DNA from: Natrinema salsiterrestre
GTDB lineage: Archaea > Halobacteriota > Halobacteria > Halobacteriales > Natrialbaceae
Direction of reading: 5' to 3'
NCBI RefSeq assembly: GCF_029502005.1
Contig: NZ_JAMQOT010000001.1
Span: 930,001 to 994,000 of the forward strand
Length of the DNA: 64,000 nucleotides
Each line of letters opens with the position of its first letter. Within the stretch, counting starts at the first letter, position 1. Positions 8,444-59,774 of this stretch are shown one piece after another. The notes beneath the pieces are model-generated. The model made no database searches. It was not told where the DNA came from and was given only the letters and a program-made list of their open reading frames with translations. The position numbers were made by a program, and so were the translations under genes.

Positions 8444-9748
8444 TCACTCCACTTCGGTCGGATCGACGCCCGGCAGCGTGATGAGGTTCTCGCGGCCGAT
8501 CCGGAGCTTCTCGATCTCGTCGTCGTCGTCCATCTTCGAGAGGAGCTGTGAGACCTTGGCGTTCGACCAGCCGGTCTCCGAGACGATCGAGGCCTGTTTC
8601 ATCCGCCCGCCGTTTCGCTTGAGCAGGCGGTGGACGCGCTCCTCGTCGCTCAACAGCTCCGGGTCGATCTCGTCGTCGACGGACTCCTCGAACTCGAGGC
8701 TCGTCCCCGGCCCGAGATCATCGGACGCTGGCGACTCGGCCGTCGAGACTGCGTCGGAGCCGCCGTTTCCGTCGGCCGTTGCGGTCCCGTGCCCGTCTCC
8801 GGGACTGTTCGAACGGCCGGGCAACGTCGCGTTCTCGAGGACCGACAACCGATCGGACGGAATCGGAACGCCGACGTCTATATCACGACGCGTGAGCAGG
8901 TACGCGATCCCACCGAGGAGGATCACGAGGGCGAGAACTGACGCGATCAGCCACCCGGCTCCGGGAAGGAAGAAGGGGCCGCCAGCACCCTCGAGAATCG
9001 AGATCTGGAGTCCGTTCTCGCCGAATTCGTGGGGACCGTCCCAGACGAGTGCGCCGTTCTCCGTGCTCGTCGGCGCATCGACGAACCCGTAGTTCGACGG
9101 GGGTTCGATAACCAGGCGCTGCCCGCTACTCAACGTCCGGAACAACGTCCCGTCGGACGTTTGGAGGGCGTCGCCGACGTGAATTCGCTCGCCGTCGACG
9201 GTGGCGAAGTTCGTCCACGTAAACGAGTAGGAGATGATCCCGACTCGATACGGCTCTTCATCGACTGATCGGTCCGCGTCGGTCTCGACGGTCTCGATCC
9301 GGGGGTCGTCCCACGCTGCGTTCTCGATCGACATATTGCGGCCGGTCGACTCGGACGCGAGAGCCGCGTACCGTTCGAACAGCTGGGGATCGTACCCGGC
9401 GTCTCGTTGCCCCGAGACGACCGAATCGGCGTACTCGTCGAACGTTTCGGCATCGTCGTCGTCCGTCACGCGGAACCGACTCTCGACCGTCCATTCCGCG
9501 TTCCCGGTATCGGTGATCCGAATCCTGATCACCTGCCAGGTGTCGGGACGGTCGAGCGGCGGTGGTGCGGTCGACGAGGCCGAAACGGACTGAGACTGCG
9601 CGGGGGCTGTGGAGAGCGATGAGGGTCCTGGGGCTGGCCGCTCGATAGTCGCCGGGGCCGATGCCGACGGCGTAGCGGCCACTGCCCCCATCGTGGTTGT
9701 CGCGAGGAGGGCTGCGAGGGCGAGTGTGGCGGCAGTGGACATCCGCAT
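8444..9748 (-). CDS. Membrane-anchored protein with C-terminal winged helix
   Basis: 434 aa from the ATG at 9748 (MRMSTAATLALAALL); the ATG at 9742 is also possible. A signal peptide (residues 3-25) is followed by a Ser/Pro/Ala-rich linker, an extracellular domain of about 200 residues (TWQVIRIRITDTGNAEWTVESRF onward), one membrane helix near 270-292 (WLIASVLALVILLGGIAYLL), an acidic linker, and a cytoplasmic winged helix at the end (LSDEERVHRLLKRNGGRMKQASIV to LRIGRENLITLPG). Haloarchaea have many such proteins with an outside sensor domain and an inside HTH domain. A role as a membrane-bound regulator is inference. Confidence 0.85.
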   Translation of the reverse strand: MRMSTAATLALAALLATTTMGAVAATPSASAPATIERPAPGPSSLSTAPAQSQSVSASSTAPPPLDRPDTWQVIRIRITDTGNAEWTVESRFRVTDDDDAETFDEYADSVVSGQRDAGYDPQLFERYAALASESTGRNMSIENAAWDDPRIETVETDADRSVDEEPYRVGIISYSFTWTNFATVDGERIHVGDALQTSDGTLFRTLSSGQRLVIEPPSNYGFVDAPTSTENGALVWDGPHEFGENGLQISILEGAGGPFFLPGAGWLIASVLALVILLGGIAYLLTRRDIDVGVPIPSDRLSVLENATLPGRSNSPGDGHGTATADGNGGSDAVSTAESPASDDLGPGTSLEFEESVDDEIDPELLSDEERVHRLLKRNGGRMKQASIVSETGWSNAKVSQLLSKMDDDDEIEKLRIGRENLITLPGVDPTEVE

Positions 9749-49290: not shown

Positions 49291-50472
49291 CTAGAGCTGT
49301 TCCCAGACCTCCTCGTCGTCCTCGAAGCCGTCCGGATCCTCCGGCGACGCGAACTCGTCGCTCGGATCGAGTTCCGAGAGATCCTCGGCCGATACGTCTC
49401 CATCGCCGTCGATGACGGCCGGCTGCTCCTCCAGATCCATCTCCGGCCAGGCGGTCTCCTCCCAGAGGCCGCGGTCGCTGTAGTAGTAGACGACGCCGTC
49501 GTTGACCACCGCGAACAACCCTCGTTGCTCGTCGTGGACGACGCGCTCGTTCGTGTCGATCGCGACGTCGACGACGTCCTCGAGCGTGTCCAGGGAGACG
49601 TGATAGTCGCCGATCCACATCGGAATCGAACCCCGCGAGATCCACTCGGCGTATCGCTGTTCGTGGACGGCCCGACGGGCGGCTTCGATGTCGGTCGGAG
49701 ACCGGCGGGAGACGAACGCCGCGCCGGCCAGCGAGAGCGTTCCGAGCACCGACAGGCCACCGATGAGTGCCGGACTGCGGGATTCGGTCGTCCGGTTCGT
49801 CCCGCTCTGGTAGCTGTGCGTCGCGGCGTCGGACAGCGATTCCTCGAGCCAGTAGGCGTCGTCCGTGATCCGCACCGGCGTCGTCGTCGTGAGCGTTCCC
49901 TGCTGACGACCCGTATCGTACTCGACGCGGAGTTCCAGCGTGAGCTGGACCGTTCCGATTCCGCTGACCTCCCGCTGGAGTTCGCGCTGTCGCTGGCGGT
50001 ACGATTCGACGTCGATCGTCGCGTCCGACGTCGCGACGCCGTTCTCGACCGACGGCGACTCCCGGAGCACCTGGTGGGTTTCGTTCCAGAACGACGCCCC
50101 GTCGCGAGTCGCCTCGAACCGGAGCGTGAGCTCGTGAGTGACGCTTCCGTCCTCGACCGGGACGCCGCCGTCGTTTCGCAACCTCGTTTCCGGTTCGACG
50201 GTCAGCTCCGGTGACGTGTTCAGAAAGTAGACCGAACTGTTCGTGAGCCGCTCGCCTTCGGTCCAGAGCGTGCCGCTTTCGGTGACGACGGCGCTCGTCT
50301 GCGCGTCGGCCGTAACGCGTTCCTCCTCGAACGTCGGCGACGTCGTCGTCTCCGGGTTCGCGACCGCCCACCCGGTCGCACCGATCGCGAGGGCACCGAT
50401 AACGACCAACGCGATCGCGATCGACCGTCCCTGTTTGGCGAGCAACAACTCGAGGCGCGGATTGTCGATCAT
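49291..50472 (-). CDS. DUF5305 family membrane protein
   Basis: 393 aa. An N-terminal membrane segment (SIAIALVVIGALAIGATGWAVA, about 16-37) is followed by an extracellular beta-rich region (40-235), a second membrane helix near 243-260 (LIGGLSVLGTLSLAGAAFVS), a cytoplasmic domain (WISRGSIPMWIGDYHVSLDTLEDVVDVAIDT) and an acidic tail. This matches DUF5305, found in archaea next to signal peptidase I and DUF1102-type genes. Here it follows such a signal peptidase gene on the same strand (134 bases). A role in export of the neighbouring small proteins is inference from context. Confidence 0.82.
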   Translation of the reverse strand: MIDNPRLELLLAKQGRSIAIALVVIGALAIGATGWAVANPETTTSPTFEEERVTADAQTSAVVTESGTLWTEGERLTNSSVYFLNTSPELTVEPETRLRNDGGVPVEDGSVTHELTLRFEATRDGASFWNETHQVLRESPSVENGVATSDATIDVESYRQRQRELQREVSGIGTVQLTLELRVEYDTGRQQGTLTTTTPVRITDDAYWLEESLSDAATHSYQSGTNRTTESRSPALIGGLSVLGTLSLAGAAFVSRRSPTDIEAARRAVHEQRYAEWISRGSIPMWIGDYHVSLDTLEDVVDVAIDTNERVVHDEQRGLFAVVNDGVVYYYSDRGLWEETAWPEMDLEEQPAVIDGDGDVSAEDLSELDPSDEFASPEDPDGFEDDEEVWEQL

Positions 50473-50606
50473 TCGTTGGCTCCAGCACTCGCCTGCCCGG
50501 ACGCGCCCGCTGGCCGAACGGTTCGGTTCCGAACTGTTCGGTCATCGGGACAATACATGCGCTAGTGAAAGAAATCAACCACTATAAGGGTAGTGGCCCC
50601 GGGTCG

Positions 50607-51788
50607 TTACTCTCGATCCTCGAACCACTTCCGAAGCCGTCGCTCGAGTCGGGTGGACAGCGGGACGTGACTCCCCGCGGATCGAAACCGAATGTCGGAA
50701 CTACCGAACAGAACGAGCACGAGTACGACGGCGATCCCGACGATAACGCCGTTTACTGCTCCGATAGCGGCGAGCGGATGGACTCCGTGGAGCCAGACGA
50801 GCACGGACGGCGGCAGCACGGCGAGATATCGATACTCGCCGAGGTGACGAACGTACTCGCCCGTTTCGCTGGGAGCGGACAGCGTCACCGTCGTCTCCCC
50901 GCTCCCCCGAATGCCGACCGTCTGCCACGTCGGATCGGCACTGATCCCGCCGCTTTCCGCCTCGTGGACGACCACCACGGGGAGGTATCCGGCGTTGTCG
51001 ACGGTACGAGTGAAGTCGGTCGTCTCGCCGGGAGCGACGATCTGTGGGTCCTCGGTGGGCGACTCCGAACTGACCAGCCCGTACTCGGTGGTCCCCGACG
51101 GGACGACCATCGCCGCGGTCGCGAACGTCACGAACACGACCAGAACGAGCCCGAGCGCGGTCCAGAACGCGATCACGTTCTCGCGCGAGCGCGACCTCGT
51201 CGCCTCGCGTCGCGTCGGCCCCACCTGCTCGAGCAATACCCCGAACCCGAGCATGGCGACGCCGAGTGCGACGAGCACGGAGCCCAGCCCGTTCGATGAC
51301 GCTGTCGTCGTGAGCCCGAAAACCGGGGCGACCGCACCGTACGCTCGCTCGACGAGTCCCTGAGCCCCCATGATCGCGGTGCCGAGATACGGGATCGTGA
51401 CGACCTCACCGCCGACCTGCAGGGTTTTGGCGACGATCTGGCCGTCGGTAACGTGGGGCTCACCGCCGTCCTGATCGGTAAAGGGGTTCGCGTCGCCTTT
51501 CGTGACGTACCCCTCCTCCGTCTCGCCGACCACGCGGTGAGTCGTCAGTCCGCCGTCGTGGAGCTCTCTGGCCTGGTAGACGACGACATCGCCCTCCTCG
51601 ACGGGACCGGCGACGACGCTCGGAATCGCGACGAAGCCGTCGCCCGCGTCCATCGCGGGTTCCATGCTTCCGGTCGCGACGTACCCGAGCAGGATCGGCT
51701 GCCCGAGGAGTTGTCCGACTATCAGGAGGATTATAGCCAGGACGACGACGAGGCCGACACCTCGCTTGACGAGCGTAGCCGGAGTCAT
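50607..51788 (-). CDS. Signal peptidase I, SipW/ER type, with long membrane extension
   Basis: 393 aa. The peptidase core (1-155) has one N-terminal helix, catalytic Ser41 in ATGSMEPAM, and His84 in LTTHRVVGE in place of the lysine of bacterial SPase I, as in SipW and the ER enzyme; D99 of KGDANPFTD belongs to the same site. The rest is unusual: helices at about 163-185 and 205-230, an outside beta domain (about 235-315), and a last helical pair, whereas SipW-type enzymes are usually under 200 aa. In Bacillus, SipW processes TasA-type fibre proteins. Three candidate substrates lie directly upstream. Confidence 0.88.
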   Translation of the reverse strand: MTPATLVKRGVGLVVVLAIILLIVGQLLGQPILLGYVATGSMEPAMDAGDGFVAIPSVVAGPVEEGDVVVYQARELHDGGLTTHRVVGETEEGYVTKGDANPFTDQDGGEPHVTDGQIVAKTLQVGGEVVTIPYLGTAIMGAQGLVERAYGAVAPVFGLTTTASSNGLGSVLVALGVAMLGFGVLLEQVGPTRREATRSRSRENVIAFWTALGLVLVVFVTFATAAMVVPSGTTEYGLVSSESPTEDPQIVAPGETTDFTRTVDNAGYLPVVVVHEAESGGISADPTWQTVGIRGSGETTVTLSAPSETGEYVRHLGEYRYLAVLPPSVLVWLHGVHPLAAIGAVNGVIVGIAVVLVLVLFGSSDIRFRSAGSHVPLSTRLERRLRKWFEDRE

Positions 51789-51921
51789 TAGCCGATTGAA
51801 CGAGCAGTCATGGGTGGCTGACGGTACAACTGAACTATACTTCGTTTCCAGGAGTATAAAGCTCGCGAGAGAACCGACCGACTGGTCGAGCGGAGCGTAC
51901 GGCCGTGGGATACCCTCGCGG

Positions 51922-53148
51922 CTACCGGGCGAACGCCCATTTCCGATTCGCAGCGACCGCCAGGAACAACAGCCCCGCCGTCGTCGGCGGCGCGAGCGCT
52001 GCGGTCGTCGCCGCCGAAAGCTCGCGGTTCGGCATCGGAACCGGAGCCGGCCGGTCGGAGACGGTCACCGTTCCAGCAGTGACGCCGCTCACGCTGATCT
52101 CGTACGTCCCCGCGCGGTCGAACCCGCGGTCGAACGAGACCGTCCGCTCGCCGTTCGCCGGGATCGAAACGAGCCGGCTCTCGACGACGATCCCGTCGAC
52201 GGAAAGCTCGAGCGTGCGCTCGACCGTCGCGTTAGTCGGGTTCCGTACCGTCGCCCGAACCGCCGTCGACTCGCCGACGGTGATATCGGCGGTCGTATCG
52301 CTATCGTCGATAGCCACGTCGTCCACGACGCCCGCATCGACGATGGCGACCGGCGGCCCCTCGACGGTAACCGATTCGCTCCCGACGCCGTCGATACCGA
52401 CGGCGTACGTTCCCGGCCAGTCCATGCGGCGCTCGAACGTCACGGTCGTCTCTTCCCCGGGCCGGAGTTCGATCCGCTGTCGGTCGACGACGGTTCCGTC
52501 GACGGTCAGCGTCGCCACGGCCGTCCCCCTCGCATCACCGGCGTTTCGATACGTCGCGCTCGCCGTCAGCGTCTCGCCGGTCTCGAGCGTCGTCGGCGAG
52601 AGCGTCAGCTCCGACCCCAGGATAGTCGCCGACGAGCTCGACCCGTCGTCCGCGCTGTCGCCGGTACCTCCGTTCGTCCCGTCCCCACCTGTCCCGTCCT
52701 CGCTCGTGTCGTCTTCGTCCGCGTACCCCACCGCGACCGTGAACGTCTCCGTTCCGGCCGTCGCGACGGACGAGTCGACCGCCACTCCCACCCTGATACT
52801 GTCGCCGGGGTCCGGCTCGAGTCGCGAGTCGTTCGTGACCGCCGACCCGTCCGCGTGGAAGGTCACACCCTCGACGTCGTGATCGATCCACACTGCTTCG
52901 ACGTCGTCGGCGTCGTCACCGATCGCGATCGTGAACACGTCGGCAAACCGCGTCTCCGTGTTGGCGACCACGCCGAGATCGAGCCTGAGCTCGCCGTCGT
53001 CGATCGTCGCGTACCGATCGTCGACGGACTCGAGAACGACATCGTCGTCCGTCCGATCCTCCCCCACAGTGATCGCCGCAGTCGGAACTACGAGCGCGAG
53101 GAGAAAGCAGAGCAGCGCGGCGACGAGTGGGGTCTTTACTGATGACAT
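51922..53148 (-). CDS. Large secreted beta-repeat protein, C-terminal membrane anchor
   Basis: 408 aa. A signal peptide (1-26) precedes a DUF1102-like region (YATIDDGELRLDLGVVANTETRFADVFTI, residues 45-140), an Asp/Gly/Thr linker (about 150-170), and two CARDB-like beta repeats (LTLSPTTLETGETLTASATYRN and, later, ITVGESTAVRATVRNPTNATVERT, each ending in a TYAVGI/TYEISV strand). The C-terminal PPTTAGLLFLAVAANRKWAFAR can anchor the protein. It sits between the small secreted proteins and the signal peptidase on the same strand, so it may be the base or tip of the same structure. Confidence 0.82.
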   Translation of the reverse strand: MSSVKTPLVAALLCFLLALVVPTAAITVGEDRTDDDVVLESVDDRYATIDDGELRLDLGVVANTETRFADVFTIAIGDDADDVEAVWIDHDVEGVTFHADGSAVTNDSRLEPDPGDSIRVGVAVDSSVATAGTETFTVAVGYADEDDTSEDGTGGDGTNGGTGDSADDGSSSSATILGSELTLSPTTLETGETLTASATYRNAGDARGTAVATLTVDGTVVDRQRIELRPGEETTVTFERRMDWPGTYAVGIDGVGSESVTVEGPPVAIVDAGVVDDVAIDDSDTTADITVGESTAVRATVRNPTNATVERTLELSVDGIVVESRLVSIPANGERTVSFDRGFDRAGTYEISVSGVTAGTVTVSDRPAPVPMPNRELSAATTAALAPPTTAGLLFLAVAANRKWAFAR

Positions 53149-53209
53149 ATATAGGACTCGTCCGAACGGTACCCGAGACCGATTCCGAAGGGACTGTCGC
53201 TAATCGTGA

Positions 53210-53707
53210 CTACGCTGACGTGTCCGTTGCCGTAAACGTAATCGTCTGGGTCGCGTCCACGCTGTTCTGGCCCTGCAGGTCGATTTCGACATCGAACGTC
53301 ATATCCCCATCAACACCGATGGTCGCCGTATTTCCACTCAGTGCAGTATCTCTCCCACCGGATCCATCCGGATCGTAGAGAAACGTGACGTCCTCATTGG
53401 TCGAGACGTCGAGATCGACTTCGTTACTCCCGTTGTTGGAAATCGTCAGCAGACCGTTGAATGTAGTCACGGCATCAGCATTGAGATCCGAGAATTGTAG
53501 CGCAAGTACATCACCAGTGCCGTTGTTACTCACTCCGCTAAATTCACTAGTAGTGGCGGATAGTGCCAACAGCGCACTCCCATCGCCGGTCGTCTGAATG
53601 GTCATCTCTCGATCCGCTTCCACGCTACTGAACGCGCCCGTTCCGAGTGCTGCGCCGCCGCCGGCGACGATCGTTCCGAGCCCGACTAACACGTTTCGTC
53701 TGTTCAT
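53210..53707 (-). CDS. TasA/camelysin-like (DUF1102) small secreted protein 1
   Basis: 165 aa from the ATG at 53707 (MNRRNVLVGLGTIVAGGG); a start at 53713 adds Met-Arg. An N-terminal RR is followed by a Gly-rich hydrophobic stretch ending GTGAFSSVEADRE, where SipW-type signal peptidase would cut near AFS. The mature part is beta-rich, Thr/Asp/Asn-rich and without cysteine (LQFSDLNADAVTTFNGLLTISNN, ATIGVDGDMTFDVEIDLQ). The transcript has a conserved 5' hairpin. The RR start might also direct Tat export. Confidence 0.8.
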   Translation of the reverse strand: MNRRNVLVGLGTIVAGGGAALGTGAFSSVEADREMTIQTTGDGSALLALSATTSEFSGVSNNGTGDVLALQFSDLNADAVTTFNGLLTISNNGSNEVDLDVSTNEDVTFLYDPDGSGGRDTALSGNTATIGVDGDMTFDVEIDLQGQNSVDATQTITFTATDTSA

Positions 53708-53724
53708 TCTCATGGTATGCTCAC

Positions 53725-53762
53725 CGTACGGTTCGCCCGGCACCGGTTACGGGTGCCGTACG
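53725..53762 (-). promoter_or_regulatory. Conserved 5' leader hairpin, copy 1
   Basis: On the coding (minus) strand: CGTAC-GGCACC-7 nt loop-GGTGCC-9 nt bulge-GTACG, ending 11-17 bases before the start codon depending on which ATG is used. The same nested plan occurs at 55638-55679. It lies 29 bases downstream of the shared AATACAAAG element, so the RNA probably begins at or just before this hairpin. Confidence 0.6.
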
Positions 53763-54075
53763 ATTCTGGTCCTTCCTAAACCGTCTCCCTACTTTGTATT
53801 GATCACCGAGAACGATTACACGAACACCAATACTCGCGACGGACGGAACGGATGGTCTTCAAGCCGAGCTTGAGCGATCGAAATCGGCCGTCTCAGTGTC
53901 ACGATAGAATGCAGTAAAGCAGCATGGAACATGACACACAGCACTCGCGTCCGAGTCCGCCGGACCGATTTCGACTCGATCACCACTCGAGTTCGGTAGA
54001 TCGAATCCGTTGCGATGGCCCGATCCAGCGAGCGTCGCGAAAAACGTTCTCGCTGAGAGCGAAAACTCAGGACCG
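53763..54075. other. Intergenic region with shared promoter element
   Basis: No gene. The element ACTTTGTATTGATCA (53791-53805; coding-strand AATACAAAGT) is shared with 55711-55720 and may act as the TATA box of the small secreted protein gene. The remainder to 54075 shows no structure I can name. Confidence 0.45.
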
Positions 54076-54945
54076 TTAGAAGTCACACCCGCTCAGACAG
54101 AGCGTCTCGACGCTCGTGCTGCCGTCGCTGAACGCCAGCGTCACCCTGACGTCGTCGCCTTTCATTTTGGCGTTCTTTCCTTGACCGTCCAGGAACCGAT
54201 CGAACCTGAAGCCGTTCGTCTCGTTTACGGTCAGCGTCACCTCGTCGCCGTCATCGAACCCGATGACCGTCGCGTTCCCGGGGTCGCTACTATCGATCGG
54301 GATACCTTCGGAAACGAGGCTCACGCCACGGTCGAGATCGACCAGAATCTCGTCGGGACCGCCGTCGACCCGAACCGCGTCGGCGTTCGTGGTTTCGTTG
54401 ATACCGAGTCCGACGATCGTGACGTCGATCGAACCGGTGTTCTCGAGTTCGAACTCGTATTTCCCGCTGTTCCCCGCGGACTTCACGCTGGCCGTCACCT
54501 GAATCTGTTCGGCCTGCGGAATCGCCGCGGTCCGCTGGGCAGTGATCGCTCCAGCGACGGAGCCGTCGGTGGCGATCAGTTCCGCGGCGATGTCGAGCGG
54601 TGCTTCCTCGCTATCGGCGGTGATCGGCGCTTCGACACCGTCGTCGATCGCGATATCGAATGACACCGGAACCGGCTCGAAGGAATCAGTGTTCCCGACG
54701 TCGACCTCGACGCTCGCGTCCGAGGAATCGAGTTCGACGGCGAGCGTCTGGGACGAACGGTTGACGAACTCCGGCGTCGTACTGGCGTCCTCGATGCCGA
54801 CGAGGCCGAGCTGGGCGTTCGGATCGTCGGCAGCGCTCACGGTGACCCCTCGAGCGGCAGTAGTCGCGCTAAACGCGCCGGTGTCGTACACCGCTCCCAC
54901 GCCGATCGAGATGATTCCGAGACCGATGAATGCTCGGCGCTTCAT
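54076..54945 (-). CDS. TasA/camelysin-like (DUF1102) secreted protein 2
   Basis: 289 aa. The N-terminus MKRRAFIGLGIISIGVG ends in a hydrophobic segment with YDTGAFSATTAARG, the same Gly-Ala-Phe-Ser signal as its neighbours. The mature part begins VTVSAADDPNAQLGLVGIED, resembling archaeal DUF1102 proteins, followed by a second beta domain (QIQVTASVKSAGNSGKYEFELENTGSIDVTIVGLGINE). It ends with a cysteine pair (LCLSGCDF) absent in the others. A TATA-like sequence on the minus strand (near 54967-54973, about 25 bases before the ATG) suggests a leaderless transcript. Confidence 0.82.
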   Translation of the reverse strand: MKRRAFIGLGIISIGVGAVYDTGAFSATTAARGVTVSAADDPNAQLGLVGIEDASTTPEFVNRSSQTLAVELDSSDASVEVDVGNTDSFEPVPVSFDIAIDDGVEAPITADSEEAPLDIAAELIATDGSVAGAITAQRTAAIPQAEQIQVTASVKSAGNSGKYEFELENTGSIDVTIVGLGINETTNADAVRVDGGPDEILVDLDRGVSLVSEGIPIDSSDPGNATVIGFDDGDEVTLTVNETNGFRFDRFLDGQGKNAKMKGDDVRVTLAFSDGSTSVETLCLSGCDF

Positions 54946-55027
54946 ACTATCATTGTACGGTTCAGTATATTACGTCCGCTGATTCGATACTCGATACCGA
55001 TCTCGTTCGATGAGTAGCCTGACGAAC

Positions 55028-55618
55028 TCAGGCTTCCGTGATCGTGATTTCGAGCGTGCCGCTGTCGTTACTGCCACCGGTATTGATATCGGTACTGATC
55101 GCTTCGGTGTCGCCTCCCGTTCCGAGGTTCGCTGTGTACGACGTGGACTGTGCGTTCGAAGTCCCGTTGAATTCGACGCTCGGGCCGCCCGTCGCCTCGA
55201 ATTTGACATCGAAGGCCTGGCTGGTGGATCCGTCGTCGTTGACGACCGTAAAGAGGTCGGTATACGACACGGTCGCGTTCGGCGGAAGCTCGCTTCCGTC
55301 GGGGCCGACGACGATTGTCACGTCGTTTTGCATGAGGCTGACGTCGGTGTCACTCGGAGAAAAGTCAGACTCGTAGGTATCACCGCTATCCGGGAAGAGA
55401 TTGGCTGGATCGTCGTCATCGGTACCGAGTGCGATGCTACTGTGGTCGCCCACGTGCAGGATGATATCGACGAAATCGGCCGCGATATCGGTGTTCGTAA
55501 CGACGTTGACGTCGAGCGTTCGGTCCGCGCTCGCGGTACTGAACGCACCCGAGCCGAGCGCTGCTCCGCCACCCGCGACGATCGTTCCCAGTCCAACAAC
55601 CACGTTGCGTCGATTCAT
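55028..55618 (-). CDS. TasA/camelysin-like (DUF1102) small secreted protein 3
   Basis: 196 aa from the ATG at 55618 (MNRRNVVVGLGTIVAGGG); 55624 adds Met-Lys. The first 30 residues are almost the same as in protein 1 and end GSGAFSTASADRT. The mature part is beta-rich (TIVVGPDGSELPPNATVSYTD, AFDVKFEATGGPSVEFN). Cysteine-free and acidic. It is the first gene of the minus-strand cluster, divergent from the giant pilin-like gene. It carries the conserved 5' hairpin and promoter element. Confidence 0.8.
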   Translation of the reverse strand: MNRRNVVVGLGTIVAGGGAALGSGAFSTASADRTLDVNVVTNTDIAADFVDIILHVGDHSSIALGTDDDDPANLFPDSGDTYESDFSPSDTDVSLMQNDVTIVVGPDGSELPPNATVSYTDLFTVVNDDGSTSQAFDVKFEATGGPSVEFNGTSNAQSTSYTANLGTGGDTEAISTDINTGGSNDSGTLEITITEA

Positions 55619-55637
55619 TTTCATTGATTATGGTCTC

Positions 55638-55679
55638 CGTACCACGCGCCAGCACCGATCCGCGAGGGGTGCCGGTACG
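55638..55679 (-). promoter_or_regulatory. Conserved 5' leader hairpin, copy 2
   Basis: On the coding strand: CGTACC-G-GCACC-11 nt loop-GGTGC-8 nt bulge-GGTACG, ending 13-19 bases before the start codon. It has the same nested stems and one-sided bulge as 53725-53762, while the loop bases differ, which suggests selection on structure. Confidence 0.6.
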
Positions 55680-55710
55680 CGGTTCTTACACCACTCCATG
55701 ACTGTCACCC

Positions 55711-55720
55711 ACTTTGTATT
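55711..55720 (-). promoter_or_regulatory. Shared AATACAAAGT promoter element
   Basis: The coding-strand element tcAATACAAAGTggg lies about 100 bases before the start and 32 bases before the hairpin. The other copy is at 53791-53800. It could be a TATA-like box or a regulator site. Confidence 0.45.
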
Positions 55721-56033
55721 GAGCAGGCAGAACTGCCGAAAGACCGTCCATACGTCGGTTCAAGGCGTCGCTGAAGCGATGGTATCGGACACCTATCCGT
55801 GCAGCGGCCCCCGAAAGCGCCGCTCGAGTCGATCCGACCCGCGACCGGATGCGTCGACTCGATCGGGGACGAGTTAATTTCGGTAGATAGTGTCAAAATA
55901 TAAAACAACGCACATAATTCGCAGTACGGATTGCTGCGATGACAGCGAAGTTCGGTCGTCCCGCCGATACGTTGTCTGGGAGCATATCAAGCGTTACTTG
56001 AACACTATTGCGAGAATACTCCCACTGATACAA
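55721..56033. other. Divergent intergenic region, AT-rich
   Basis: No gene seen. A TATA-like stretch (aaaatataaaac, near 55894-55905) might serve either direction. Nothing else recognisable. Confidence 0.4.
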
Positions 56034-56056
56034 ACATACATATTTTTACTATAGGA
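56034..56056 (+). promoter_or_regulatory. Promoter element shared by both giant pilin-like genes, copy 1
   Basis: ACATACAT-A-TTTTTACTAT-AGGA starts 42 bases before the ATG at 56076. The second copy, ACATACATTTTTATGCTATCAGGA, starts 41 bases before the ATG at 60035. Confidence 0.55.
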
Positions 56057-56075
56057 TTCAGGTATTAACACAGAA

Positions 56076-59000
56076 ATGGGGAAAAACAATCGGGGTCAGA
56101 AATGCAATTCGACGGGCGATCAACGGGCAGTGAGTCCGCTGGTGGGGGTCATCCTGTTGTTCGCCATCGTCGCGATCGGTGCGATGATGGTGTTCGTCAC
56201 CGGCGCGTCGATGCTCGATGCGTTCGAATCGGATGCCAACGCGGAACGGGCCCAGCAGGTCATGAGCGAAACCGACCACAGGATCGCGACGGTCGCAGCG
56301 ACGGGGACGCAACAGGAACTCCCCGAGATGGAGGGGTCGATCACGAACGACGGCTCGATCGAGGTCACGTGGTACAACGCCTCGACCGGGACGAGATGTC
56401 CTACAGGACCCGTTAGGGGAGACTTACGCGCTCTCGAGTTCGAACTGAACGATCGGACGATCGCCCATCAGGGCGGTGGCGTCTGGGTGAAGACTGAGAA
56501 CGGCGTCACCGTCGACTCGGAACCGCAGATCGAGTACGACGGGGACTCGCTACGGCTGCAGATCCTCCAGCTCGAGGAGGGAGACTTCGAGGGCCCCGAG
56601 ACGGTCGCGAGGGCGAACCACAGCAAGTCGACGAGTCTCACGAAGGACATCAACGACGCTGCCAGCAACTGTCCCGACGCCACCGACATCGAAGTCGAGA
56701 TCGAAAGCTCGTACTACGAGGGGTGGAATCGGTATCTCGAGGACGCCGTCGGAGACAGCAACGTCGAATCCTACTCCGGCAACCAGACTGTCGAGATGAA
56801 GATCCAAAACGTCCGGTCTCCTACCAGCAACCCCACCGTTCTCATCGAGTCGGACGACGGACTGAAAAATACAGTCGGAACGGACGACCAGCGGGTCGAA
56901 TATAGCGATCCGCTGAAGTTCCGGGCGACGCTGAACAACACCGGAGACAATACGATCACCACACCGATGAGAGTCTCGATCGATGGTGGAGCGATCGTAA
57001 AAGATGGCGATAACGCACTGCCCAATGGGCAAACCAAGTCAAATAGGAAAGCCACTGTAAAACAGAGTTCGTACGAAGACACTCTCACACCGGGACAGAC
57101 GTACGAATATACGATCGAGTCGCTCGACGATTCGGGCAACGTCGAAGACTCGCTCGACAGCCCCGGTGAGTTCTATCTCGGCAAATCCGGGTCGCAGTTC
57201 AACGTGACCGACAGCGACGTCACGACGACGTCGACCGGCGACGGAAACGTCACGATCAGCGCCGAGGTGACCAACCGCGGCGTCGAGGAGGGGACCCGAG
57301 ACGTGACCCTCGAGCTCGAAGAGTACAACGTCACCGCCAGTGAGGAACTCACCCTCGACTACGGTGCGAACGGGACCGTCAGCTGGACGGTCAACGAGAG
57401 TGACCTCCCGATCGGCTCGAACGCGTTCACGATCGACACGGGTGACGATACCGCGAACGGAACCGTCACCGGGAAAGCGACCGGCGGCGAGGACGCCTTC
57501 GTGGTCGTCGAGGACGAGGGGGTCGGCGACGATCAAGTCGTCGCGGACGACAAGCCGTTCAGCGTCGAAGCAAGCGTCGTGAGCACCTACAGCGGCAAGG
57601 AGACCCGAAATGTCAATCTGTCCATTCCGGGTACCGACGTCCACCGATCCGAGCTGATTACCCTCGAGGGCGGCGAAGAGAACACGATCTCGTTCTGGAT
57701 CGATCCCGACAAGTACGACCTCGAGCCGGGAACAGTCTACGACTACGACATCGACGCCGACGGTACCGGCCTGAGCACTCCCGGATCGTTCTACATCGGG
57801 GAGCCCGGAACCAATTTCGAACTGTCGGACGGAAACGCGACGACCGACGACAACGTCACCATCACGGCCGATCTGAAAAACACCGGCGTCGATTCCGGTT
57901 CACAGACCGTGACCGTCGAGCTCGAGTACCTCGACGAGATGCCGGCCGAGCTCGAGGACGAGGATCCGTACGGGACGCTCTTCGATGGAGAAATTAATCG
58001 GTCGTACGGTGAATCGGACACGATCGAACTGGACCTGAACAGGAGCAGGCTCCTCGACGGTGAGTACCGAGCGACGATTCAGACGGAAGACGAGTCGACG
58101 ACCACGTCGTTTACCGTTACCGCTGGTGTCGATCCCGGGCGAGCGGGGCTCGACGATCTCGATAACGCCACCGTAGATATTTCGGTGCTGAGCTCGCAGG
58201 TTTCCGGAATCAACGGCTACCCGAACGATCACGAACTGGGAACCATGACTCTCGAGGTGCTGACCAAACAGGAGGGGACGACGACGACCGAACACGTATT
58301 CGAGAACCCCTCCGGCGGGGAAAACATCAACACGTACCCCAGCTGGCAGGACAAGAGCGATCCGGTCTACAATACCACCCTCGAGATCGAGGAGGAAGCC
58401 ACGCTGACCCTCGCATCGAGTTCGTACGGGCTCCCGAGCGGTACTTCAGGGTGTAACGTGCAGGAGGAAGCGGAATCGAACTACTTCAGTCCCGTCGACC
58501 AGCACAGGTGGTGTGAAGACGTCGACACTTCCTCGGACGATTATCTCGTCGATCAGATCAACGCGACGGCCGACTCACGGGAGCAGAACCTCCGCGTTCG
58601 AACGGCGAAAGACAACAGTGTACCGGGTCTCCAGGCGGGGAACGAAGAGCAGGAGAGCGTCGACGAAATTCTCGCCGACGTGTCGGACCCGGTCATCGAC
58701 CGCGATAGTCTCTGGAACGACGGCGAACTCACTCTCGACGAGAACGAGTTCATTTTCCTGTTTGAGGCCACGACTCAGTGTGGAATGTACGACTCCGGCT
58801 GTGCAGAGAGCAACGACGACATCGACGCGCTGTGGGAAAGCGCACGCGACAATACCGGCTCGGGCGATCCGAACTTCAACGACCTGATCGTCTACGTCAA
58901 CGTCGAGCGAGCGAACGTCGATCCCGGGACGCCGAGTATTACCATCACGCCCGGCGACGGCGACTCGACCGACGTCGACGCCGGCGAGGGTCGTGACGCG

Positions 59001-59159
59001 GGCGGAGCCGGCGAAATCGACGCCCGCTTCGAGGGAGACACTGACGAAGGCAGCGCTCCCGACGTCGGGACCGGTGATTCGGCCCCCACTGACGGCACGA
59101 GCGGAGCCAGCAGCAACACCGGTATCGAGATCGACACCGATCACGTCGTGATCGGCTGA
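56076..59159 (+). CDS. Giant type IV pilin-like surface protein 1
   Basis: 1027 aa. Residues 1-45 form a class III (prepilin) signal: charged N-terminus, QRAVSPLVGVILLFAIVAIGAMMVFV. The mature part starts with a pilin-like region (ERAQQVMSETDHRIATVAATG, LEFELNDRTIAHQGGGVW). From about 260 to 690 come four CARDB-like beta repeats, several ending in PGTVYDYDIDADG- or PGEFYLGKSG-like text. The last 330 residues are acidic and unrecognised, with several cysteines and an Asp/Gly tail ending HVVIG. No C-terminal membrane anchor. Far longer than normal archaeal pilins (100-200 aa), so more likely an adhesin or minor pilin. Confidence 0.85.
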   Translation: MGKNNRGQKCNSTGDQRAVSPLVGVILLFAIVAIGAMMVFVTGASMLDAFESDANAERAQQVMSETDHRIATVAATGTQQELPEMEGSITNDGSIEVTWYNASTGTRCPTGPVRGDLRALEFELNDRTIAHQGGGVWVKTENGVTVDSEPQIEYDGDSLRLQILQLEEGDFEGPETVARANHSKSTSLTKDINDAASNCPDATDIEVEIESSYYEGWNRYLEDAVGDSNVESYSGNQTVEMKIQNVRSPTSNPTVLIESDDGLKNTVGTDDQRVEYSDPLKFRATLNNTGDNTITTPMRVSIDGGAIVKDGDNALPNGQTKSNRKATVKQSSYEDTLTPGQTYEYTIESLDDSGNVEDSLDSPGEFYLGKSGSQFNVTDSDVTTTSTGDGNVTISAEVTNRGVEEGTRDVTLELEEYNVTASEELTLDYGANGTVSWTVNESDLPIGSNAFTIDTGDDTANGTVTGKATGGEDAFVVVEDEGVGDDQVVADDKPFSVEASVVSTYSGKETRNVNLSIPGTDVHRSELITLEGGEENTISFWIDPDKYDLEPGTVYDYDIDADGTGLSTPGSFYIGEPGTNFELSDGNATTDDNVTITADLKNTGVDSGSQTVTVELEYLDEMPAELEDEDPYGTLFDGEINRSYGESDTIELDLNRSRLLDGEYRATIQTEDESTTTSFTVTAGVDPGRAGLDDLDNATVDISVLSSQVSGINGYPNDHELGTMTLEVLTKQEGTTTTEHVFENPSGGENINTYPSWQDKSDPVYNTTLEIEEEATLTLASSSYGLPSGTSGCNVQEEAESNYFSPVDQHRWCEDVDTSSDDYLVDQINATADSREQNLRVRTAKDNSVPGLQAGNEEQESVDEILADVSDPVIDRDSLWNDGELTLDENEFIFLFEATTQCGMYDSGCAESNDDIDALWESARDNTGSGDPNFNDLIVYVNVERANVDPGTPSITITPGDGDSTDVDAGEGRDAGGAGEIDARFEGDTDEGSAPDVGTGDSAPTDGTSGASSNTGIEIDTDHVVIG

Positions 59160-59264
59160 CGGGACCACCGCCCTCGAGTCGAACGGGATTCGCGACCGGG
59201 TACTCGTCGACGGCAGTGCTCGAGAGCGCGGAGCTCAAATACCCCATCACGGACCACCGATTTC

Positions 59265-59774
59265 ATGCGATCGATCACTACCCTCGGCGTCGCCCTCCTC
59301 GTCGTCGGCGGACTCCTGTTCGCCGCCTCGAGCGGTGCGTTCGACTCGCTGGATGCCGATCGAGAGGTGGGGATCGAAACGGCCGACGACGAACGGGCAC
59401 TCCTCTCACTCGACGTTCCGGAGCGGATCGAATTATCGGACGGGACCCTCGTTTGTGAGGGGTTCTTTTGTTATCGAGGCTACCGCCAGTACGACGTCGA
59501 GATCGTCACGATCACGGATCGAACGGCACCTCCCCCGCTGGTCGTTGGTGAGGGGGACGTGTCGCTGGAGGCGGAATCCGGTGACAATCCCTCCCTCGAG
59601 GATTGGAACGTGACGACAGTGGACGGCGGGCACGTCGTAGCGGGTCAGATCCGCTGTGATGCACCGTTCGGAGCCCAACAGCCAGCCAATACGGAACTCA
59701 CGTTCGACATCGAAACCGGCGACGGCGAAATCACGATCAGTCTCGATCGACGAATCGCGATTCAGTGCGCGTAG
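59265..59774 (+). CDS. TasA/camelysin-like small secreted protein 4
   Basis: 169 aa. The N-terminal hydrophobic segment (MRSITTLGVALLVVGGLLFAAS) ends SGAFDSLDADREVGIETADDERALLSLDV, closely like the junction of proteins 1 and 3 (SGAFS...ADR). Four or more cysteines (LVCEGFFCYRGY, IRCD, IQCA at the end), unlike the minus-strand proteins. It lies between the two giant pilin-like genes, on the same strand. Confidence 0.75.
   Translation: MRSITTLGVALLVVGGLLFAASSGAFDSLDADREVGIETADDERALLSLDVPERIELSDGTLVCEGFFCYRGYRQYDVEIVTITDRTAPPPLVVGEGDVSLEAESGDNPSLEDWNVTTVDGGHVVAGQIRCDAPFGAQQPANTELTFDIETGDGEITISLDRRIAIQCA

Follow-up and report, generated by a model that had tools for sequence, protein, structure and literature searches.

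A probable Tat-fimbria locus in Natrinema salsiterrestre and the signal peptidase/DUF5305 pair at its core

A 64,000-nt stretch of the Natrinema salsiterrestre genome (NZ_JAMQOT010000001.1, 930,001–994,000) was analyzed; it is called the window here, and coordinates are positions in it. The initial annotation had read one of its loci as an extracellular fibre system in which a SipW-type signal peptidase serves TasA-like neighbours. Which kind of fibre could this locus encode, and are its subunits related to TasA at all? The three secreted GAFS proteins described on the minus strand, and the GAFD protein on the opposite strand, correspond to open frames at the positions given below. Six genes follow each other on the minus strand, from 55624 down to 49291, and three on the plus strand, each listed in gene order.

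55028..55624, minus strand: TafA-type fimbrial subunit, 198 aa; Tat signal NRRNVVVGLG; GA/FS junction (predicted cut between GA and FS); NF052520 above cut-off; TafA clade
54076..54945, minus strand: candidate minor fimbrial protein, 289 aa (candidate tip or adaptor); KRR signal; GAFS junction; pilin-like N-terminal part
53210..53743, minus strand: pilin, 177 aa; Tat signal; GA/FS junction (predicted cut between GA and FS); counterpart of the N. gari pilin 9P0A
51922..53148, minus strand: TafF-type protein, 408 aa; no RR in its signal peptide; pilin-like domain at about 34–142; CARDB repeats; C-terminal hydrophobic tail
50607..51788, minus strand: archaeal (Ser/His) signal peptidase I, 393 aa, with C-terminal extension; TIGR02228, 57 bits
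49291..50472, minus strand: DUF5305 protein, 393 aa; PF17231, 168 bits
56076..59159, plus strand: giant secreted DUF7289 protein, 1027 aa, with type IV pilin-like N-terminus; DUF7289, 92.7 bits
59265..59774, plus strand: small GAFD protein, 169 aa, candidate minor subunit; no RR; junction and N-terminal segment as in the pilins
60035->64000, plus strand: second giant DUF7289/GLUG protein, >1300 aa, with type IV pilin-like N-terminus; incomplete at the window end

Assignment of the locus and its solved relative

Tat-fimbriae (tafi) are outlined in PMC12687288 as thin haloarchaeal filaments whose components are exported via the Tat pathway and whose core component is TafA. Models for the fimbrial proteins TafA, TafC, TafE and TafF (NF052520–NF052523) are included in NCBIfam release 20. 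The 55028–55624 protein scored 212 bits (E 9e-63) against the TafA equivalog NF052520, the cut-off being 190, and it was placed in the TafA clade of the tree with an SH-aLRT support of 99%. TafA was found above cut-off in 21 of 292 genomes of the order Halobacteriales. The 177-aa pilin matched TafE over its full length, at 96 bits and below the cut-off of 155, and the CARDB protein matched TafF (NF052523) at 44.6 bits, below the cut-off of 420. The best TafC equivalog score at the locus was 27 bits (cut-off 410), and no DUF7344 gene was recognised there. In canonical tafi loci, of which L078 is an example, DUF5305, TafF, TafE, TafA, a DUF7344 protein and TafC with a lectin-like LamG domain are found together with the same signal peptidase, and the TafE-like and TafF-like genes of the window occupy the equivalent places. 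The DUF7344 protein of L078, encoded between TafA and TafC (8486–9046), is a possible regulator. Since the TafA match has an E-value of 9e-63 and the gene order is kept in relatives of the locus, the assignment goes beyond chance. A PHROGs search returned no match for the core genes.

The 53210–53743 pilin, whose probable start is residue 11, is related to a protein of solved structure, PDB 9P0A (phmmer 1.6e-20; profile search 2e-46), with 54% identity over 119 residues. This entry, labelled only "Pilin" and comprising three chains, is 100% identical to a protein of Natrinema gari JCM 14663 across the 156 residues compared. The N. gari gene lies at the syntenic place, where the order pilin, TafF, peptidase, DUF5305 and the flanking genes are the same as in the window. 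Identity between the two loci is 68–98% in the flanks, 81% for DUF5305 and 77% for the peptidase. A homologue of 9P0A at the syntenic place in the same genus makes fibre formation likely at this type of locus. The extracellular fibre system proposed in the initial annotation is thus supported, both by the TafA equivalog and by the syntenic relative of a solved pilin. With considerable confidence, we regard the locus as a Natrinema variant of the already described haloarchaeal Tat-fimbria system, known here from its genes, and not as a new system.

The signal peptidase and DUF5305

The score of the 50607–51788 protein against TIGR02228 (archaeal signal peptidase I) is above the cut-off of 51.85, and its 36.9 bits against the SipW equivalog NF046067 are below the cut-off of 190. 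Ser41 and His84, which had been proposed as the catalytic pair, are invariant in 97/97 relatives, as are D99 and D105; in the same 97 proteins the C-terminal extension likewise has several residues that vary little or not at all. The extension is predicted to contain about four transmembrane segments and a loop domain (230–340). It has no domain in common with DUF5305 (hhalign 2%) and shows a weak CARDB-like match (hhalign 36%). For the DUF5305 protein, transmembrane prediction gives an N-terminal transmembrane segment, an outer domain, a second transmembrane segment at 236–254 and a C-terminal domain.

In order to evaluate the linkage of both genes, 59 haloarchaeal loci were picked solely for holding DUF5305, the window being excluded. 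Within 7.5 kb of DUF5305, 56 of them have an extended peptidase, 49 a GAFS protein and 17 a TafF-like protein; in the three exceptions (L123, L120 and L130) no extended peptidase lies nearby. In the reverse survey, DUF5305 was present within about 3.3 kb of 45 of the 47 extended peptidases with strong extension matches (25 genomes; positions compared by hand). TIGR02228 matches five places in the N. salsiterrestre genome, and three of these are exactly its three DUF5305 loci. The co-occurrence of DUF5305 and peptidase in haloarchaea, on which the earlier reading depended, was therefore confirmed. By the same surveys the enlargement of the peptidase, which had been thought to set this locus apart from the bacterial one, is a trait of the whole family. 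The two other peptidase/DUF5305/GAFS loci of the genome (L112, C11:742–760k; L113, C20:662–680k) are both devoid of TafF. Shortened peptidase and DUF5305 frames were seen at L202 (5806–6096) and L211 (6935–7303), perhaps decaying copies of the locus.

From these data DUF5305 is predicted to be the membrane partner of the peptidase in assembly. A less probable reading, which still deserves some weight, is that DUF5305 acts as a regulator or sensor linking fibre assembly to the cell interior: its C-terminal domain is predicted on the inner side past the second transmembrane segment (an inferred topology), and DUF5305 is kept in several loci from which TafF or recognised pilins are missing. The constant pairing with a processing enzyme and the large predicted outer domain, however, suit a role as assembly partner better.

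The linkage, the common junction and the invariant catalytic residues lead us to infer that the neighbouring pilins are cut by this peptidase between GA and F. The proposal that it serves the adjacent substrates thus stands as far as gene linkage is concerned, the cleavage itself being deduced. It is rather unlikely that the peptidase is a mere genomic neighbour and that pilin maturation falls to the housekeeping signal peptidases of contig C24. Two other TIGR02228 places do exist in the genome and linkage is no proof of function, but peptidase and DUF5305 stay together across paralogous loci, the catalytic residues do not vary, and the divergences of the two proteins correlate (r 0.89 over 91 loci, uncorrected for the species tree).

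DUF5305 is also found in other families of the same phylum and is absent from 14 control genomes, Bacillus subtilis included. Outside the order, an extended peptidase lies close to DUF5305 in 15 of 18 readable loci (hand count). The neighbours outside haloarchaea carry the classical GTxAxFSDxE junction; the camelysin family PF12389 was matched by 7/7 tested neighbours and the SipW-dependent signal model TIGR04088 by 6/6 tested, while RR occurred in 0/21 camelysin/TasA-type neighbours. The one locus of a different kind, L208, holds DUF1102 pilins without RR instead of camelysin/TasA-type proteins. The haloarchaeal pilins are related to these DUF1102 proteins (hhalign 97.7%, E 2e-12), with no direct Pfam match to DUF1102 (PF06510). 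This distribution suggests that subunits of two families, using two export routes, are found alongside one and the same peptidase/DUF5305 core. The chances seem to us evenly balanced that the pair is a general archaeal fibre-assembly core for two families without detectable sequence relation, namely Sec-exported camelysin/TasA-type proteins outside haloarchaea and Tat-exported DUF1102/Taf-type proteins within them, with the Sec-type DUF1102 pilins of L208 as an intermediate; the pair would have been kept while substrate export went from Sec to Tat. This shared core may be the new part of the system. Through it DUF5305, a family annotated as being of unknown function, acquires a role that can be tested, next to the extended peptidase, and Tat-fimbriae, themselves described only recently, become linked to fibre loci of the SipW/TasA-like kind in other archaea.

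Subunits and the predicted course of assembly

The three GAFS proteins on the minus strand (53210, 54076 and 55028) all carry RR (Tat) signals, a feature that had been missed in the initial annotation. Among related pilins, RR precedes the hydrophobic stretch in 124 of 127. F1, A6 and R8 of the mature N-terminal strand are invariant in a set of 34 pilins. The GAFD protein falls into a distinct clade with good support (n=11), of which 0/11 members have RR. Because this protein lacks RR yet has the same junction and an N-terminal segment matching the pilins (hhalign 79%, E 1.6e-5), the locus seems to combine substrates of the Tat type and of the Sec type that share one cleavage site. The 289-aa protein gave a weak TafE/TafA match (NCBIfam), and its residues 25–91 are related to the pilins (hhalign 92.7%, E 4e-7). 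Both it and the GAFD protein are candidate minor subunits. Elsewhere in the genome, on contig C26 (L114, 7301–7873), a GAFN pilin-like protein with a Tat signal was detected; no peptidase or DUF5305 was recognised in the surrounding 16 kb.

The mature 177-aa pilin was modelled with AlphaFold (pLDDT 82) and compared with solved folds by Foldseek. Self-complemented FimA came first (E 2e-4), and Pyrobaculum AbpA and the Sulfolobus thread followed (E 4–5e-3), with modest TM-scores to known pilins of about 0.4–0.5. FimA, AbpA and the thread are all donor-strand fibre subunits. The AlphaFold model of TafA was poor (pLDDT 55). A fold like that of AbpA had been anticipated together with one like that of TasA; the former is among the best matches after FimA, and TasA is missing from the top 50, TM-scores being modest throughout. 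No window protein matched the camelysin/TasA families PF12389, NF046066 or TIGR04088 (Pfam, NCBIfam), and the pilins showed no relation to the camelysin set (hhalign <1%). On these three comparisons, homology of the subunits to TasA was rejected. A matrix-fibre system built from homologues of Bacillus TasA is thus improbable here: the hydrophobic-A-F junction is of the same kind and PF12389/TIGR04088 proteins accompany the peptidase/DUF5305 pair outside the order, but the window subunits match no such family and bear Tat and not Sec signals, and the modelled pilin resembles AbpA and FimA. What survives of the TasA link is indirect, in that the core pair occurs mostly with camelysin/TasA-type proteins outside haloarchaea.

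Both giant flanking genes, noted earlier as pilin-like, encode DUF7289 proteins; for the 1027-aa protein, a relative adjoins 18 of 46 TafF loci. A TapA-like match in a giant protein (TIGR04087, 14.6 bits) was put down to chance. An appendage of the type IV pilus kind, built from GAFS and DUF7289 proteins as the type IV pilin-like N-termini of the two giants might hint, is very improbable, for the small subunits carry RR signals with a GA/F junction and not class III prepilin signals, their fold is FimA/AbpA-like, and the eight locus proteins include neither a recognisable pilus ATPase nor a platform protein.

The 51922–53148 protein, initially described as DUF1102/CARDB-like, indeed matches CARDB (48.8 bits against a Pfam cut-off of 22.7), and by profile its N-terminal domain is a relative of the pilins, which in turn are related to DUF1102 proteins. 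The relation between TafF and the pilins (hhalign 96%, E 2e-9) begins only at pilin residue 19. Between the signal cleavage junction and the pilin-like domain, TafF typically has 11 residues versus 21 in the pilins. Judged by this alignment, about 10 residues of donor strand are absent ahead of the pilin-like domain in TafF. With the acceptor domain present and the donor strand missing, TafF would accept but could not donate a strand, so that it is probably the first subunit of the chain and a membrane-held anchor; its C-terminal tail, which is hydrophobic, conserved and furnished with basic residues, argues for the base rather than the tip. Alternatively, TafF could be a tip protein by analogy with FimH. 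In the tree, pilins of TafF-less loci group apart from those of TafF loci.

We consider the following course of events highly probable for this Natrinema tafi locus. Pilin precursors, whose RR motifs were observed, would leave the cell via the Tat pathway. The adjacent Ser/His signal peptidase, held beside its presumed membrane partner in assembly, DUF5305, would cut them between GA and F. Cleavage would free the conserved N-terminal strand, which would supply the strand lacking in the beta-sandwich of the subunit that follows, and strand donation would yield a head-to-tail fibre, as the fold and the relation to 9P0A imply. TafF, the predicted fibre-starting and anchoring protein, would start the chain and probably anchor it, and the 289-aa and GAFD proteins would be added as minor subunits.

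Comparison with known systems

In the Bacillus SipW-TasA-TapA system, a devoted signal peptidase cuts the subunits at a hydrophobic-A/F junction, between A and F. The window locus resembles it in both the presumably devoted peptidase and the junction. It differs in that its subunits are not TasA by sequence and use Tat instead of Sec, that its peptidase is archaeal-type with an extension, and that DUF5305 was not found in Bacillus subtilis. As for chaperone-usher pili, no PapD-like chaperone or usher was found among the eight locus proteins (Pfam, NCBIfam).

The Pyrobaculum AbpA bundling pili (7UEG) and the Sulfolobus thread (7PNB) share a similar incomplete beta-sandwich with the modelled pilin, although the Foldseek E-values are only 4–5e-3 and no sequence relation to the window pilins was seen. 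The thread is a donor-strand fibre whose subunit is reportedly exported via Sec (PMC9715654), whereas the window pilins carry Tat signals.

The likeness to the canonical tafi loci comprises TafA above cut-off, Tat signals, adjacent TafE-like and TafF-like genes, and the common signal peptidase and DUF5305. In contrast to them, the genes of the window locus are co-directional, the TafE/TafF-like proteins score below the cut-offs, TafC with its lectin-like LamG domain and the DUF7344 gene are not recognised, a 9P0A-type pilin accompanies TafA, and the GAFD protein and the DUF7289 giants lie next door. The N. gari locus is alike in junction, TafF, peptidase, DUF5305 and flanks; it has a single pilin, whereas the window has TafA and the 289-aa protein in addition.
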